Assembly (NCBI GenBank): GCA_023511995.1
Contig: JAIMAL010000002.1
Location: 62,001-126,000 of the forward strand
Length of the DNA stretch: 64,000 nt
Source of the DNA: Burkholderiales bacterium
GTDB taxonomy: Bacteria; Pseudomonadota; Gammaproteobacteria; Burkholderiales; Thiobacteraceae
Direction of reading: 5' to 3'
In this document: piece after piece, positions 30,876-45,523 of the stretch
Layout of the letters: each line of letters starts with the position of its first letter
How positions within the stretch are numbered: the first letter of the stretch is position 1
Made by a program: the position numbers and the translations under genes
The notes under the pieces: model-generated
Database searches by the model: none
Seen by the model: only the letters and a program-made list of their open reading frames with translations
What the model was told of the DNA's origin: nothing

Positions 30876-33212
30876 CTAGCGCGTCAGGCCGGCGTAAAGT
30901 AGCGGCAGTTTTTCCGGCAGCCGCTCGACGTGGTCCACCACCAGGTAGTTGCGGGCGCCGAAGATGCGCGAGACGTACTGGTCCGCGCGGGGGTCGAGGC
31001 TCATGCAGTAGGTGACGATGCCCACCCGCGCCGCCTCTTCCACCGCCTTCTTGGTGTCGTAGCGCAGGTATTGGGGGTCACGCACGTCCACGTCTGCCGG
31101 CTCGCCATCGGTGATGACCATGAGCAGTTTCTTCGCCGATTTCTGCTGGCGCAGATAATGGGTGGCGTGCCGGATAGCCGCCCCCATGCGGGTGGACAAC
31201 TGCCCCGTCATCCCGGCCAGCCGGGCCTTGGGCTTGTCGCCATAGGGCTCGTCGAAATCCTTGAAGCGGAAATACTCCACGTTGTGGCGCCCGTCGGAAC
31301 AGAAACCATGGATGGCGAAGGGATCGCCCACCTTGTGGATGGCGTCGGCAAGCAGCACGCAGGCCTGACGGGTGAGTTCCAGCACGGTGTAGTCCTGTCC
31401 TGCCACGTTTTCGTTGGTGGATTCGGAAAGGTCCAGCAGGACCAGCACGGAGATGTCCCGCGTCTTGCGCACCGAACGCATCATGATGCGGGGATCGGGC
31501 TGCTGCCCCATGCGGATGTCGATCTGCGCGCGGATGGCGGCATTGATGTCAATCTCGTCGCCATCCTCCAGCTTGCGGATGCGCTGCACGCCCTGGGGCT
31601 GCATGGCATCAAGGAGGAATTTCATACGCGAGATGAGGCGCTTGTGCTGGGCGGTGATGTCGTCGATGAGGGCAAGCTCGCCCGCCTTGGCGCGCTTTTC
31701 CACCACCGTCACCCAACTGGGGCGCTCGAGCTGAATCTGGTAATCCCACTCCGGGTAGTGGAAGGGGGGCGACACCGGCTCTTTGCCTTCCAGCTCATTG
31801 ATGGTCACCCCTTCGTCCAGGTAGAACTCGGTGGGCAGCACCCAGATTTCCTGGGCATCGTCGCCGGCGAGCTCCACATCCACCTCGTTGACCATCTCCA
31901 TCACGGAGACATATTTGCGCACCTGCCGGGGTTTTTCGTAGCCGGCGGCAATAGCCTTGTTGAAATCGAACTCCTCGAAGGCCCAGAAATACCGGTTGTC
32001 ATCGCGATAGGGTGCGATCAGGACGTCGGTGCGGGGATTGAAGGGGATGCGCCGGCTGAGGAAGTCATGGGCCAGGGCCACGCCGATGTCCCAGGAGGTC
32101 TGGTTGGTCTCCAGCCGCTCGGCGGCCTCGGCAAACCGGCGCCGCCCCTCGATGATCCAGGGGTCGTCGTCCTCATAGGTCTCATCGAGCAGGGCGCGGG
32201 CCAGGCGATTGAGATAGTCACCCGCTGAGGCCTCTTGCTGCGGGGTGATGACATGCAGGCGCGCCCAGAGCTGCTTCAGACCGGGGAACCGGCGCAGTGC
32301 CAGCGTTTCCACGCGGGCGTCCTCGATCACCGAGATCACCGCCATCTGCCAGGGGTTGAGGGCCTCCGCGGAAATGGGTTCGCGGGTGTAGACGATGTGT
32401 GCCGCCGCATGGGCCGCCGCTGCACGGTACACCTCCAGCCCCGGGACCTGGGTGCCGGAGGGAGTGATGAAATCGTCGAAGGCATCCGGCAGATGGATGA
32501 AATAGTCTTCGATGTAGGGTTTGTAGCCTTCCCGCGTCTCGAAATCGCCCGAGGTGGGCTTCATGAAGAAATCCCGTCCCCACAGGGCCCGCAGGTACAT
32601 GTTGATGCGCCGCTGCACATCGATGAACAGCGTCCCCTTGCGTTCCTTTTGCAGGACGGCCAGCGATTCTTTGCTCTCCAGGCCGAAATATCTGACCTGT
32701 GCCTCGTAATCGGTCCGGTGGGCATGCGCCCCCCACAGGGCCCAGCGGCGCAACCCGCCCAGCGTAAGCTGGCCCAAAAGCACGTCCAGTTTGTCCAGCA
32801 TGGGCCGCACCCCACGCGGAGCCTGGGCGACGAGGACATTGAGGAACTGCAGGTATTTGCGGAACAGATCCGCATCGCCCAGGCGGCGTGCCGCCGTCGG
32901 CGCCGTGGAGAGGATGAGCTCCAGCACCGCGCCCGAGGTCTTCGAGGCAAGGCTGAGCGCCGTGGTGGCCAGATCGGGGATCACATCCTCCCCCACCTCC
33001 TTGGCCACCAGGGGCGCATTTTCCAGCCACGCCACCACCAGGTCGCAGCCCCGGCCCAGACTCTTCAGCGCCATGGCGCCCTTGAGGTAGTTGTCGAGCC
33101 CCCGCGGCGAGTAGATCTTCGTCGCCTCCACCCAGGTGGCGCGCAGGGCTTCCTGGGAATCGGGGCTCAGCGCTTCGACCAGGTCTTTGTAATCGTCGAG
33201 GTTGACTGACAT
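30876..33212 (-). CDS. cbbO: CbbO, VWA-domain RuBisCO activase adaptor
   Basis: This 778-residue protein has a helical N-terminal half and a C-terminal von Willebrand factor A domain with the MIDAS motif DLSES (LLDLSESTNENVAGQ) and the Thr/Asp motifs further on (MVITDGEPADVDVRDP). Known role: CbbO links the AAA+ motor CbbQ to inhibited RuBisCO through the VWA domain and triggers release of sugar-phosphate inhibitors. It follows cbbQ on the same strand with 34 bases between them. The length is normal for CbbO. Confidence 0.96.
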   Translation of the reverse strand: MSVNLDDYKDLVEALSPDSQEALRATWVEATKIYSPRGLDNYLKGAMALKSLGRGCDLVVAWLENAPLVAKEVGEDVIPDLATTALSLASKTSGAVLELILSTAPTAARRLGDADLFRKYLQFLNVLVAQAPRGVRPMLDKLDVLLGQLTLGGLRRWALWGAHAHRTDYEAQVRYFGLESKESLAVLQKERKGTLFIDVQRRINMYLRALWGRDFFMKPTSGDFETREGYKPYIEDYFIHLPDAFDDFITPSGTQVPGLEVYRAAAAHAAAHIVYTREPISAEALNPWQMAVISVIEDARVETLALRRFPGLKQLWARLHVITPQQEASAGDYLNRLARALLDETYEDDDPWIIEGRRRFAEAAERLETNQTSWDIGVALAHDFLSRRIPFNPRTDVLIAPYRDDNRYFWAFEEFDFNKAIAAGYEKPRQVRKYVSVMEMVNEVDVELAGDDAQEIWVLPTEFYLDEGVTINELEGKEPVSPPFHYPEWDYQIQLERPSWVTVVEKRAKAGELALIDDITAQHKRLISRMKFLLDAMQPQGVQRIRKLEDGDEIDINAAIRAQIDIRMGQQPDPRIMMRSVRKTRDISVLVLLDLSESTNENVAGQDYTVLELTRQACVLLADAIHKVGDPFAIHGFCSDGRHNVEYFRFKDFDEPYGDKPKARLAGMTGQLSTRMGAAIRHATHYLRQQKSAKKLLMVITDGEPADVDVRDPQYLRYDTKKAVEEAARVGIVTYCMSLDPRADQYVSRIFGARNYLVVDHVERLPEKLPLLYAGLTR

Positions 33213-33246: not shown

Positions 33247-34050
33247 TCAGAAGAAGGTGGTGACGGCGGCATCGAGCGCATCCCGCATGTCCGGATCATC
33301 CGTGATGGGACGCACCAGGGCGACGCGGCAGGCCGCCTTGGGCTCCACGCCCTTGGCGATCAGGCTGCCGGCATACACCAGCATGCGGGTGGAAATCCCT
33401 TCGTCCAGGCCATGCCCCTTGAGATTGCGGGCACGCTCGGCGATGGAAACCAGCTTGTCGGCAATTTCCGGGGCAATGCCCGCCTCATGGGCGACGATCT
33501 CGGTTTCGATGTCGTGCTCGGGATAATTGAAGTCCAGCGCACCGAAACGTTGCTTGGTGGACTGTTTCAGGTCCTTCATCAGCGACTGATAGCCGGGGTT
33601 GTAGGAAATGACGAGCTGGAAATCCGGATGGGCATGGATGAGCTCGCCTTTCTTTTCCAGGGGCAACACGCGGCGATTGTCGGTGAGCGGGTGGATCACC
33701 ACGGTGGTGTCCTGGCGCGCTTCCACCACCTCATCGAGGTAACAGATGGCGCCATAGCGGGCGGCCAGCGCCAGGGGCCCATCCTGCCAGCGCGTGCCCT
33801 GGGCATCGAGGAGGAAACGGCCCACCAGGTCGGAAGCGGTCATGTCCTCGTTGCAGGCGACGGTGATGAGGGGCTTTTTCAGCCGCCAGGCCATGTATTC
33901 GACGAAACGGGTCTTGCCGCAGCCGGTGGGGCCTTTCAGCATCATGGGCATGCGCACCGAATAGGCCGCCTCATAAAGCTCCACTTCGTCCCCCACGGGG
34001 CGATAGTAGGGCTCCTTCTCGATCAGGTACTGCTTGATGATGTCACTCAT
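33247..34050 (-). CDS. cbbQ: CbbQ, MoxR-type AAA+ RuBisCO activase motor
   Basis: This 267-residue AAA+ protein has Walker A GPTGCGKT (residues 40-47), Walker [14 protein letters not shown] and the sensor/arginine region [17 protein letters not shown]. It forms hexamers that remodel RuBisCO together with CbbO. It lies downstream of cbbS with a strong hairpin between the genes, so its expression may be lower than that of cbbLS. Confidence 0.97.
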
Positions 34051-34693: not shown

Positions 34694-36115
34694 TTATTTG
34701 TGGGCGACGTCCAGCTTGTCCACGGTGTCGAACTCGAACTTGATCTCCTTCCAGGTCTCCATGGCGACCTTGAGTTCGGGCGAGTGCTTGGCAGCCGCTT
34801 CCAGGATGGCCTTGCCTTCCTTCTCCAGTTGCCGGCCCTCGTTGCGGGCTTCGACACAGGCCTCCAGGGCCACCCGGTTGGCCGCCGCACCAGCGGCGTT
34901 GCCCCAGGGATGACCCAGGGTGCCGCCGCCGAACTGCAACACGGCATCATCACCGAAGATCGTGACCAGCGCCGGCATGTGCCAGACGTGGATGCCGCCG
35001 GAAGCCACGGCGAAGACGCCGGGCATGGAGCCCCAGTCCTGATCGAAGAAGATGCCGCGGGAGCGGTCCTCCTGGATGTAGCTCTCCCGCAAGAGGTCGA
35101 TCCAGCCCAGGGTGGCGGCGCGGTCGCCTTCCAGCTTGCCCACCACGGTACCGGTGTGCAGGTGGTCGCCGCCCATCAGGCGCAGCACCTTGGCGAGCAC
35201 CCGGAAATGGATGCCATGGTGCGGATTGCGGTCCATCACGGCGTGCATGGCACGGTGCACATGCAGCAACAGACCGTTTTCGCGGCACCAGTTGGCAAGC
35301 CCCGTGTGGGCGCAGAAGCCGCCGGTGATGTAGTCGTGCATGATGATGGGCGCACCGATTTCCTTCGCGTACTCGGCGCGCTTGAACATCTCGTCCGGCG
35401 TCGGCGCGGTCACGTTGAGATAGTGGCCCTTGCGCTCACCCGTCTCCCGCTCGGCCTTGTGGATGGCCTCCATGACGAAATCGAAACGCTGCTTCCAGCG
35501 CATAAAGGGCTGGCTGTTGACGTTCTCGTCGTCCTTGGTGAAGTCCAGGCCTCCACGCAGGCACTCATAGACAGCGCGGCCGTAGTTTTTCGCCGACAGG
35601 CCCAGCTTGGGCTTGATGGTGCAACCCAGAAGCGGACGGCCATACTTGTTCAGGATGTCCCGCTCCACCTGGATACCATGGGGCGGGCCGCCGCAGGTCT
35701 TGACATAGGCGATCGGGAAACGCACGTCCTCCAGACGCAGGGCGCGGATCGCCTTGAAGCCGAAGACGTTGCCCACCAGGGAGGTGAAGACGTTGACCAC
35801 CGAGCCTTCCTCGAAGAGGTCGATGGGATAGGCCACGTAGGCGTAGAAGCAGGTGTCGTCACCCGGCACGTCCTCGATCTTGTAGGCGCGCCCCTTGTAG
35901 TAGTCGAGGTCGGTCAGAAGGTCGGTCCACACCGTGGTCCAGGTGCCGGTGGAAGATTCCGCGGCGACCGCGGCGGCAGCCTCCTCCCGGTCCACGCCAG
36001 GCTGGGGGGTGATCTTGAAGCAGGCCAGGATGTCGGTATCCAAAGGCGTATAGTCGGGCATCCAGTAGGTCTGCCGGTACTCTTTCACACCAGCGGTGTA
36101 GGTCTTGACGGCCAT
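34694..36115 (-). CDS. cbbL: CbbL, RuBisCO large subunit (form IA)
   Basis: This 473-residue subunit starts at ATG 36115, preceded by GGAGG at 36121-36125, which decides against the upstream ATG at 36127. The active site is complete: TIKPK motif (Lys168/Lys170), carbamylated Lys194 in [10 protein letters not shown], and the HIHRAMHA-like VHRAMHA loop. Sequence character is form IA. Tyr72 is present and position 346 is Tyr (in LLRESY); in Halothiobacillus, Tyr72 and Phe346 contact CsoS2 (from memory). It is divergent from cbbR1 and followed by cbbS-cbbQ-cbbO. Confidence 0.98.
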
Positions 36116-36263
36116 GTGAACCTCCAATCGGTAAAAAAATCAGACATCGCACCAGGGTCATGCAGCGCGAGCCCGAACTATAAGCCAACCCCGCCATAAG
36201 GAATAGTGAAAGTTTTTGATAATTAGGATAAGCTATCGCTTATCTTTGGCAGGTTCCACAGGG
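36116..36263. promoter_or_regulatory. cbbL / cbbR1 divergent control region with palindrome
   Basis: This is the 148-base intergenic region between divergent cbbL and cbbR1. It contains a perfect 7-bp inverted repeat GATAAGC-TATC-GCTTATC at 36227-36244 in an AT-rich stretch (36203-36246), unlike the GC-rich surroundings. LysR regulators bind such dyads, so this is a candidate CbbR operator. The RBS of cbbL (GGAGG) lies at its left edge. Confidence 0.7.
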
Positions 36264-40874: not shown

Positions 40875-41216
40875 CTACACGACAAGGCCGGTCACATCGC
40901 CATCGCGCCCGGCGCCGCCGGCGGTCGGCTCCGTGGGCAGGATGCGTTCCACCTCGCCATGCACGCGGGCAATGATATGGGCGGCGACAAGGCCATCCCC
41001 CACGCGCTCGCAGGCATCCGCCCCGGCGCGCACCGCGGCATTCACCGCACCGGTCTCGCCACGTACCATCACGGTCACGTAGCCGCCACCCACGAACTGG
41101 CGGCCGATCAGCCGCACCTCCGCGGCTTTGGTCATCGCGTCGGCGGCTTCGATCGCCGGAACCAGACCGCGGGTTTCGATCATGCCCAGGGCAATGCCAG
41201 TCATTCCGTTAGCCAT
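40875..41216 (-). CDS. csoS1: CsoS1, alpha-carboxysome shell hexamer (BMC-H), copy with extended C-terminus
   Basis: This is a 113-residue BMC-H protein. It starts at ATG 41216 (MANGMTGIALGMIETRGLVPAIEAADAM), because AGGAG at 41223-41227 is correctly spaced for it; the in-frame ATG at 41231 overlaps that RBS. The pore motif region RLIGRQFVGGGYVTVMVRGETGAV is typical. The last 15 or so residues (TEPTAGGAGRDGDVTGLVV) extend beyond the other copy, as in CsoS1B. Shell facets of the carboxysome are built from these hexamers. Confidence 0.97.
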   Translation of the reverse strand: MANGMTGIALGMIETRGLVPAIEAADAMTKAAEVRLIGRQFVGGGYVTVMVRGETGAVNAAVRAGADACERVGDGLVAAHIIARVHGEVERILPTEPTAGGAGRDGDVTGLVV

Positions 41217-41253
41217 TTTCATCTCCTTCATAAAAGTTTGCCTTCAATTCCCT

Positions 41254-41553
41254 TTAGGCCGCGGCAGCGGTCGGCAGAATGTTTTCCACCTCGCTGTGGA
41301 CGCGGGCAATGATATGGGCGGCGACGAGGCCATCCCCGACGCGCTCGCAGGCATCCGCCCCGGCGCGCACCGCGGCATTCACCGCACCGGTCTCGCCACG
41401 CACCATTACGGTCACGTAGCCGCCGCCCACGAACTGGCGGCCGATCAGCCGCACCTCCGCGGCCTTGGTCATCGCGTCGGCGGCTTCGATCGCCGGCACC
41501 AGACCACGCGTTTCAATCATTCCCAGGGCGATGCCCGTCATTGCGCTTGCCAT
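41254..41553 (-). CDS. csoS1: CsoS1, alpha-carboxysome shell hexamer (BMC-H), short copy
   Basis: This is a 99-residue BMC-H protein, almost identical to the downstream copy from residue 4 to about 92, and nearly identical at the DNA level too. The differences are at the N-terminus (ASA for ANG) and from HSEVENILPTAAAA onward. It forms the bulk of the shell facet. It lies between csoS4B and the second csoS1 with only 37 bases to the latter. Confidence 0.97.
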   Translation of the reverse strand: MASAMTGIALGMIETRGLVPAIEAADAMTKAAEVRLIGRQFVGGGYVTVMVRGETGAVNAAVRAGADACERVGDGLVAAHIIARVHSEVENILPTAAAA

Positions 41554-43732: not shown

Positions 43733-45523
43733 TCAGCCCCGGGCGCCTCCGGACAGGGTGACGAGTGCCCCGGCCTCGGTATTGCCGCTGCTGCCGGTGA
43801 TGCGACTGGGGGCGGGCGTCGGACGTTCCGCTTCGCGGTGGTCGCGGGCGCTCAGGCCGCCACCCCGCCAGGCGCCCCGTAGCGTCGGATTGCGGCTCTG
43901 GGCGGAACGACCTTCGGTACCGGTCACGCGGTCGTTCCGGTCCCAGGCGTCACCGGTGATCTGGCGCGCTCGGCCTTCGCCGGTGATGCGATCCACCTGA
44001 CCGTCGGGGCGGCGTGAGGGGGCGGCGGATGCCGTTTCATCCCTGTAGCGGAACTCCGGCGTGCCGGAGACTAGGCCCACGGCACGGGCCATGGGCCCGG
44101 TGATGCGGCCGTTGTCGCCGTAGGCGCTGCCGGTGATGCGTCGGACCTCGCTGTTGCGCGCCATGCGCGCCGGCGTGGTGATGGAGAAGCCGCTTGACAC
44201 CCTCGGTGCGGGCGGCGTGCCGCAGGCCTCGGCGCTCTGGTCCTCACCCACGTAGGGCGTGCCGCTGACCGGCTGGCATGCGCCGCGCGCGTTGCCGGTC
44301 AGCTTGCTGTCGGGACCGGGCTGGATGCCGGTGACCGCCGGACTGCGGCCCAGACGGGCGCGGTTGATGGCTTCCGCCGCGGCACGCGCGGCGCAGAACT
44401 CCGCGTACTGCTCGGCGCCGATGTAGGCGCTGCCGGTCACCGGCTTGCACGCGCCGTATTCGTCGCCGGTGACCCGGACCGACCGGCCCACCTGGGCGCC
44501 GGTCACGACCTGACCCTTGATGGTGCGCGACACGCCCACTTTGGCCGGCGGCTGGTAAGGTTGCTCGCGGCAGAAGGAAACGAACTCTTCGCTGGGGATG
44601 TAGTCGGTGCCAGTCACACGCTTGCAGGAGCCCTGCTCAACGCCGGTAAGGCTCGGTGAACGACCCAGTAGGGTTCCGGTCACCCTTGCGCCAGCGCTCG
44701 TGTGACTGACTTCCACCTTTTTTGGGGCGTTTCCCTCCTCATTCTGCCCGCTGATCGCGGGCTGGGCACCCGGCTCAGGGGCGGTGCCGCAGAAGTCGCG
44801 GACCTGCTCCGCCGCCAGGTATTCGGTGCCGGTCACGCGCTTGCACGTGCCGTATTCGTCGCCGGTGACCTTGCTGCTGCGGCCCACCTGGGTGCCGGTC
44901 ACACGGTGGCCGCGGCTGGTGCTGGTCACACCCACCTTGGCCGGCGACGGCTCGGGCAGCGTGCCGCAGAAGTCGCGGAACTGCTCCGCGCCCACGTATT
45001 CGGTGCCGGTGATGGTACGGCAGGTGCCGGCCTCGTTGCCGGTGACGCGTGAGGTGCGCTCCACCTGGCTGCCGGTCACGGGGGTGCCGGCCAACGTGGT
45101 GCCGATTTCCACCTTCGTCGGCTGCGGGCGTACCCGGCCGCAGGGGCGGCTGGGGGGTGCGTCGCCGCGCCCTCTCAGAGATTGTTCCATGCGGCGCTGG
45201 CGCGCCGGGGAGAGCGGGAGAGGCGTGAGATTCGCGGCAGGACGGGCTTCCTCGACGCGGGCGGAGAGGGGCTCGCCATGCTGGCAGCCACAGCTTGCCG
45301 CGTCGGCGTTTTCGCCGGCTGTAGGCGCGGCCGGGTTGGCTGCGACCGGCGCGGCGGCGCTGTTGCGCGCGGCAAGTCGGACCGCGGTGGCGCTTGCCGG
45401 TCCGCTGGTGATGGGGCCTGGGGTGGCGCCCTTCCCTTTGAGGGAGAGCGCGCGGCGGCGGGCGAGAGCCGCTTCTCGGCCGCTGAGGGCTTCACCCGGG
45501 GGGGTTGCAGTCGCTTGGCTCAT
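43733..45523 (-). CDS. csoS2: CsoS2, carboxysome assembly scaffold (compact)
   Basis: This is a 596-residue disordered scaffold. Two N-type RuBisCO-binding motifs are visible (SGREAALARRRALSLKGKG at 14-32 and LSPARQRRMEQSLRGRG at about 103-119). Four full M-repeats (K-V-x-x-S/T-x-T...VTG.Q/L-G-R-S...VTG.E.G.CK.VTGT.Y...FC) and a partial fifth follow. The C-terminal region ends in the conserved SRITGSSGNTEAGALVTLSG peptide that contacts the shell. It is shorter than the roughly 750-870 residues usual for CsoS2. It is first in the cso operon and divergent from cbbR2. A candidate -1 frameshift site lies at codons 268-269. Confidence 0.96.
   Translation of the reverse strand: MSQATATPPGEALSGREAALARRRALSLKGKGATPGPITSGPASATAVRLAARNSAAAPVAANPAAPTAGENADAASCGCQHGEPLSARVEEARPAANLTPLPLSPARQRRMEQSLRGRGDAPPSRPCGRVRPQPTKVEIGTTLAGTPVTGSQVERTSRVTGNEAGTCRTITGTEYVGAEQFRDFCGTLPEPSPAKVGVTSTSRGHRVTGTQVGRSSKVTGDEYGTCKRVTGTEYLAAEQVRDFCGTAPEPGAQPAISGQNEEGNAPKKVEVSHTSAGARVTGTLLGRSPSLTGVEQGSCKRVTGTDYIPSEEFVSFCREQPYQPPAKVGVSRTIKGQVVTGAQVGRSVRVTGDEYGACKPVTGSAYIGAEQYAEFCAARAAAEAINRARLGRSPAVTGIQPGPDSKLTGNARGACQPVSGTPYVGEDQSAEACGTPPAPRVSSGFSITTPARMARNSEVRRITGSAYGDNGRITGPMARAVGLVSGTPEFRYRDETASAAPSRRPDGQVDRITGEGRARQITGDAWDRNDRVTGTEGRSAQSRNPTLRGAWRGGGLSARDHREAERPTPAPSRITGSSGNTEAGALVTLSGGARG
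44637..44740 (-). promoter_or_regulatory. Candidate -1 programmed ribosomal frameshift cassette in csoS2
   Basis: On the coding (minus) strand: an internal SD-like GAGGAGG (44740-44734), a 10-base spacer, and the slippery heptamer A-AAA-AAG in the zero frame (44723-44717). A candidate stem follows, GTCAC pairing with GTGAC about 10 bases downstream, containing GCGC/GCGC. This is the layout of E. coli dnaX. A -1 slip would add 26 codons and end at TGA 44639-44637, giving a protein of about 295 residues. Halothiobacillus csoS2 is known to use -1 frameshifting to make CsoS2A and CsoS2B. Confidence 0.65.

Follow-up and report, generated by a model that had tools for sequence, protein, structure and literature searches.

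In Escherichia coli dnaX, the frameshift is followed by a stop one codon past the shift and by a close stem-loop. A −1 frameshift in a carboxysome gene, csoS2 of Halothiobacillus neapolitanus, was reportedly described by Chaijarasphong et al. in 2016. The short form, CsoS2A, has 570 residues of 869, the last three of them from the −1 frame, and no 5′ Shine-Dalgarno (SD) sequence was noted (PMC5009743). The site is in the sixth M-repeat (PMC11365436). Altogether, 79 of 162 csoS2 genes have been predicted to frameshift, and in E. coli A_AAA_AAG shifts much more readily than the heptamers it was compared with; shifting on it relies on tRNA-Lys(UUU) decoding AAA and AAG alike (PMC5009743). It has yet to be explained why certain carboxysomes produce a short CsoS2 (PMC12312397).

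Here we analyse a csoS2 gene in a window of 64,000 nucleotides from a Burkholderiales bacterium of the family Thiobacteraceae. The gene very probably carries a programmed −1 ribosomal frameshift site, from which a short product is predicted. Our analysis establishes the site, its conservation, selection on the −1 frame, its distribution in one clade, a linked loss and a match to the tRNA set; that slippage occurs, at whatever rate, is what we infer.

The csoS2 gene and its slippery site

The window gene has an in-phase heptamer of the X_XXY_YYZ type in its M-region and an early −1 stop:

43733–45523, minus strand: csoS2, encoding a CsoS2B-like full-length carboxysome scaffold protein of 596 aa and 61.5 kDa (Pfam CsoS2_M, E 3e-133)
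44734–44740, minus strand: GAGGAGG, an internal SD-like element with a 10-nt spacer to the heptamer, read from the sequence
44717–44723, minus strand: slippery heptamer A_AAA_AAG, in phase, with AAA AAG being Lys268-Lys269 of frame 0
44640–44717, minus strand: −1 frame of 26 codons, GGSQSHERWRKGDRNPTGSFTEPYRR, overlapping the M4-equivalent repeat of frame 0
44637–44639, minus strand: −1 frame stop TGA, read from the sequence
44640–45523, minus strand: predicted short product of 295 aa and about 30.6 kDa (269 frame-0 residues plus 26)

The protein matches H. neapolitanus CsoS2B in the PDB (phmmer E 1e-115). It has N-, M- and C-regions in addition to the Pfam domain, and csoSCA adjoins the gene, as expected of a CsoS2 scaffold protein. 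The sequence-only reading had proposed GAGGAGG, a 10-base spacer and an in-phase A-AAA-AAG; all are present on the minus strand, the frame-0 codons at the heptamer being CCA AAA AAG. Its 26-codon −1 frame and product of about 295 of the 596 residues also agree with what the sequence gives, 26 codons plus TGA and 295 aa. The proposed place, between M-repeats 2 and 3, is correct by our count of the repeats in the window protein. In the numbering of relatives, the site becomes the start of an M4-equivalent repeat, because they carry one extra repeat ahead of it.

Several kb from csoS2-S4 are cbbL (34694–36127), CbbQ (33247–34050) and a VWA protein that is likely CbbO (30876–33212). A LysR gene stands beside each of the two clusters, cbb and csoS2-S4, in a split locus known from Thiobacillaceae. 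Two adjoining csoS1 (BMC) genes, at 40875–41231 and 41254–41553, encode proteins with near-identical sequences for most of their length.

Conservation and history of the site

The csoS2 genes compared came from genome contigs, relatives, the order (399 genomes), the class (369 genomes), the family of G347 and two more families; a plasmid collection yielded distant csoS2 only. In 31 distinct csoS2 genes from Thiobacillus and allied lineages, A_AAA_AA[GA] occurs at the same place, and the −1 frame it opens is always 26 codons long. The constant 26 is due in part to the repeat architecture, in which stretches like GGCGATGAG or GGCGTTGAG supply the stop, so we do not take it as proof by itself. 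Every carrier has retained this stop, once as TAA. Ahead of the two lysines stands a CCA, CTA or TCA codon, in which the residue varies (Pro, Leu, Ser) and the rare wobble A stays, A-ending synonyms making up just 3–23% of such Pro, Leu and Ser codons in the genes tested. The earlier proposal of a −1 cassette was to be abandoned if the heptamer proved not to be conserved in close relatives; it is conserved throughout the clade, with one nested loss.

In a tree of 89 csoS2 genes, the carriers form one clade (support 97/94); it takes in the genus of the window, a record under the name Thiobacillus (L004) and genomes from several families. Related genomes have other csoS2 types, which suggests some exchange of csoS2 loci. 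The one nested non-carrier, SCN2, is placed within the clade with support of 92/84 only. Its csoS2 (L005, 5905–8493) has a duplicated block of two M-repeats; the PKK residues are kept, the two copies read GAAAAAG and GAAAAAA, and both −1 frames are without the tail and its stop. As neither heptamer nor tail is present, the two were lost together.

Candidate stimulatory elements

The sequence-only reading had likened the site to dnaX in three elements, of which the heptamer stands, the SD-like element stands in part and the stem does not. The SD-like element of the window, about 10 nt upstream as in dnaX-type sites, has an anti-SD energy of −12.8 kcal/mol, within the lowest 0.5% of the gene. 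Upstream anti-SD affinity is high in most members and above that of codon-randomised versions, but weak in L014 and L078. Randomisation gave a mean p of 0.22 vs. 0.68 at random places, and p below 0.2 in 62% vs. 8%, figures that come from related, non-independent genes. By this measure the element is semi-conserved in relatives.

The proposed stem (GTCAC/GTGAC with inner GCGC) is present in the window. As a conserved element it is unsupported, because only 1 of 17 sequences can form the closing pair and 59% of cells fit the inner helix; no compensatory change was found among the 17. A second candidate lies about 31 nt past the heptamer:

44654–44685, minus strand: possible downstream hairpin, a weak RNAalifold consensus (alignment columns 39–70)

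This one is kept better than the proposed stem, with 92% of cells paired, but the changes are mostly one-sided, with one double-changed pair. An Rfam search returned chance matches only.

Proposed slippage and the tRNA-Lys set

The mechanism that we propose is as follows. Most ribosomes would read through to give full-length CsoS2. Some would be held by the SD-like sequence within the gene, to which RNA structure downstream may contribute. The tRNA-Lys(UUU) molecules would then re-pair with AAA AAA, a slip of one base back on A_AAA_AAG, and the slipped ribosomes would translate 26 codons of the −1 frame before stopping.

Thermus dnaX exemplifies another route to such a product, in which transcription slips on the A-run, adding an A to the message, and normal translation does the rest. 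For csoS2 this route would leave both the product and the selection on the −1 tail unchanged, and a run of six to seven A is indeed conserved. We regard it as improbable all the same, as the run never exceeds seven A, 27 of 30 genes have A6G and the SD-like element is retained, and as the last base of the heptamer tracks the tRNA-Lys set, which transcription would not sense.

This last point deserves elaboration. The window genome (G000) yielded one tRNA-Lys, with anticodon UUU, by both pattern search and ARAGORN, so that A_AAA_AAG is found there with a single tRNA-Lys(UUU), the dnaX-type combination. An additional tRNA-Lys(CUU) was found in the carriers G195, G959 and G087, and exactly these have A_AAA_AAA. 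Among the remaining 26 or so carrier genomes, it was found in one only, G442, an assembly with 8% contamination. The association of heptamer form with tRNA-Lys(CUU) has a Fisher p of 0.001, uncorrected for descent, and involves at least two lineages. The pattern search can miss genes, and G405 gave none. G442 is the sole exception to the match; its tRNA-Lys(CUU) adjoins an integrase-like gene (L176, 98–1556), so named from reading the protein. Since the last base of the heptamer follows the tRNA-Lys set, ribosomal slippage fits and transcriptional slippage does not. The pairing of A_AAA_AAA with tRNA-Lys(CUU), a natural match between a slippery sequence and a tRNA set, thus suggests that the tRNA slips on the ribosome.

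Selection on the −1 frame

Similarity in the −1 frame at the site, compared with within-gene shuffles of synonymous codons, has a Z of 20, the highest among 613 windows compared (mean across the gene 4.2, sd 3.6). Compared pairwise, the 26 tail codons vary least at frame-0 position 3; they vary most at position 2, which is the −1 wobble position, and the top-ranking windows in a scan of position ratios all overlap the frameshift site. Counted by parsimony, as lower bounds, on a tree built from csoS2 outside the tail region, changes per codon at positions 1, 2 and 3 are 1.77, 1.88 and 1.65 in the tail region vs. 2.39, 1.80 and 6.08 in the remaining csoS2 (p 3.5e-11). The usual excess of third-position changes thus vanishes in the tail region. 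Between the two main groups, pN/pS of the tail region falls from 1.75 in frame 0 to 0.52 in frame −1; in three control stretches farther downstream it goes the other way, at 0.58–0.85 in frame 0 and 0.95–1.18 in frame −1. An alignment of relatives, suggested with the original proposal, shows that the constrained synonymous sites coincide with the −1 tail, and the constraint stops at the −1 stop codon. Judged by these substitution patterns, selection in the tail region is acting on the −1 frame.

In L006, L014, L015 and L135, the frame-0 repeat lacks its VTG and Cys residues and the −1 tail is retained. Several M-repeats of these four genes, from the fourth onward, are without VTG motifs and cysteines in frame 0. 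Evolution has thus kept the putative hidden tail under tighter constraint than the stretch of main protein that it overlaps, and for this reason the short form probably serves a purpose.

Conservation for an RNA structure or some other nucleotide-level element, the open −1 frame being incidental, would account for the weak consensus hairpin and for the +1 frame, whose Z in the shuffle test is likewise high (17.7). We give this reading very little credence. A constraint purely at the RNA level would not favour the −1 wobble position, and changes peak at frame-0 position 2; moreover, pN/pS is below 1 in the −1 frame only, and the constraint ends at a stop that all carriers keep, even where its codon differs.

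Returning to ribosomal slippage, the −1 frame is closed five codons before the heptamer of the window, so entry must be at or next to the heptamer; it is closed four to five codons upstream in L008, L078, L085 and L086. Internal initiation in the tail frame has an SD-like sequence just upstream in its favor, but ATG, GTG and TTG are absent from the tail and the 12 preceding codons in 31 of 31 carriers and the heptamer would not need to be retained, which excludes it for these usual start codons and leaves it a negligible chance. Equally negligible is a chance heptamer within ordinary coding sequence: the window has five copies of AAAAAAG against an expectation of 2.3, and as the heptamer is not rare by itself its conservation is what counts, here joined by a rare wobble A and by selection in the −1 frame.

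The predicted short product

The predicted short form of the window consists of the N-domain, two M-repeats, two lysines and the −1 tail. It would keep the Rubisco-binding N-domain but neither the later M-repeats nor the C-domain that binds the shell. Two M-repeats are the minimum for CsoS2A entry into engineered shells of Halothiobacillus (PMC11481516).

The tail consensus is GGNPSHERWRNGERHPTGSLVETFRR. The peptide is basic (pI 10.9 including the two lysines), and residues S5, W9, G12, P16, G18, E22 and R26 are invariant in 30 genes. A profile search of 399 genomes of the order gave strong scores solely in csoS2 −1 frames (8 genomes), and searches of the PDB and Pfam returned no match to the tail. 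A resemblance to the C-domain motif SGTPEFRYRD, seen by eye, was dropped when hhalign found no match to the tail in CsoS2 or CsoSCA. We expect the tail and the linker alike to be disordered.

Selection supports a function for the tail at the protein level; that the tail binds a carboxysome component is our guess. Because the tail is conserved by selection in a second frame, the short form in this clade should act in a tail-dependent manner. We consider it likely that the short form is not mere truncation: a −1 module under selection would give it a partner or targeting role that the full-length protein lacks, and the site would replace the one in the sixth repeat. The conservation of the −1 tail as a peptide was beyond the reach of the single sequence from which the proposal started.

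Comparison with known systems

Mapped on the protein sequence of solved CsoS2B, residue 567 of H. neapolitanus is the K of HAPK|MSGDE. A C_CCA_AA[AG] heptamer that precedes a [TS]GD motif and whose −1 frame stops after 3–4 codons occurs in 19 of the 89 csoS2 genes (records L010, L016, L017, L050, L054, L056, L057, L061, L088-L091, L096 and L099-L103) and is likely the Halothiobacillus-type site. A further 41 of the 89 have neither site and may use another site or none. The sixth-repeat site with its 3-residue tail is absent from the window gene and the 29 A-type genes scanned.

In the papers searched, no description of the clade site or its conserved tail was found; the 79 genes predicted to frameshift may include members of the carrier clade. 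In the split cbbLS/csoS1-4 loci of Thiobacillaceae, as here, cbbL is apart from csoS2-S4, and the Thiobacillus record L004 belongs to the clade; the paper on these loci does not mention frameshifting (PMC9164163).

With E. coli dnaX, the csoS2 site of the window shares A_AAA_AAG, an SD-like element about 10 nt upstream and tRNA-Lys(UUU) as the sole tRNA-Lys found. It differs in that 26 selected codons follow the shift and the close stem is unconserved. With H. neapolitanus, it shares the gene, a −1 shift in the M-region and a short form without the C-domain, whereas the clade has A_AAA_AA[GA] where the M4-equivalent repeat starts, an SD-like element and a selected tail of 26 residues. The proposal of a version distinct from that of Halothiobacillus is borne out by the different place, by a tail of 26 codons rather than three residues and by the finding that no csoS2 gene compared has both sites. 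In sum, this would be a new and separate csoS2 frameshift site with a selected tail coded in overlap, and csoS2 lineages would have two different frameshift sites between them.
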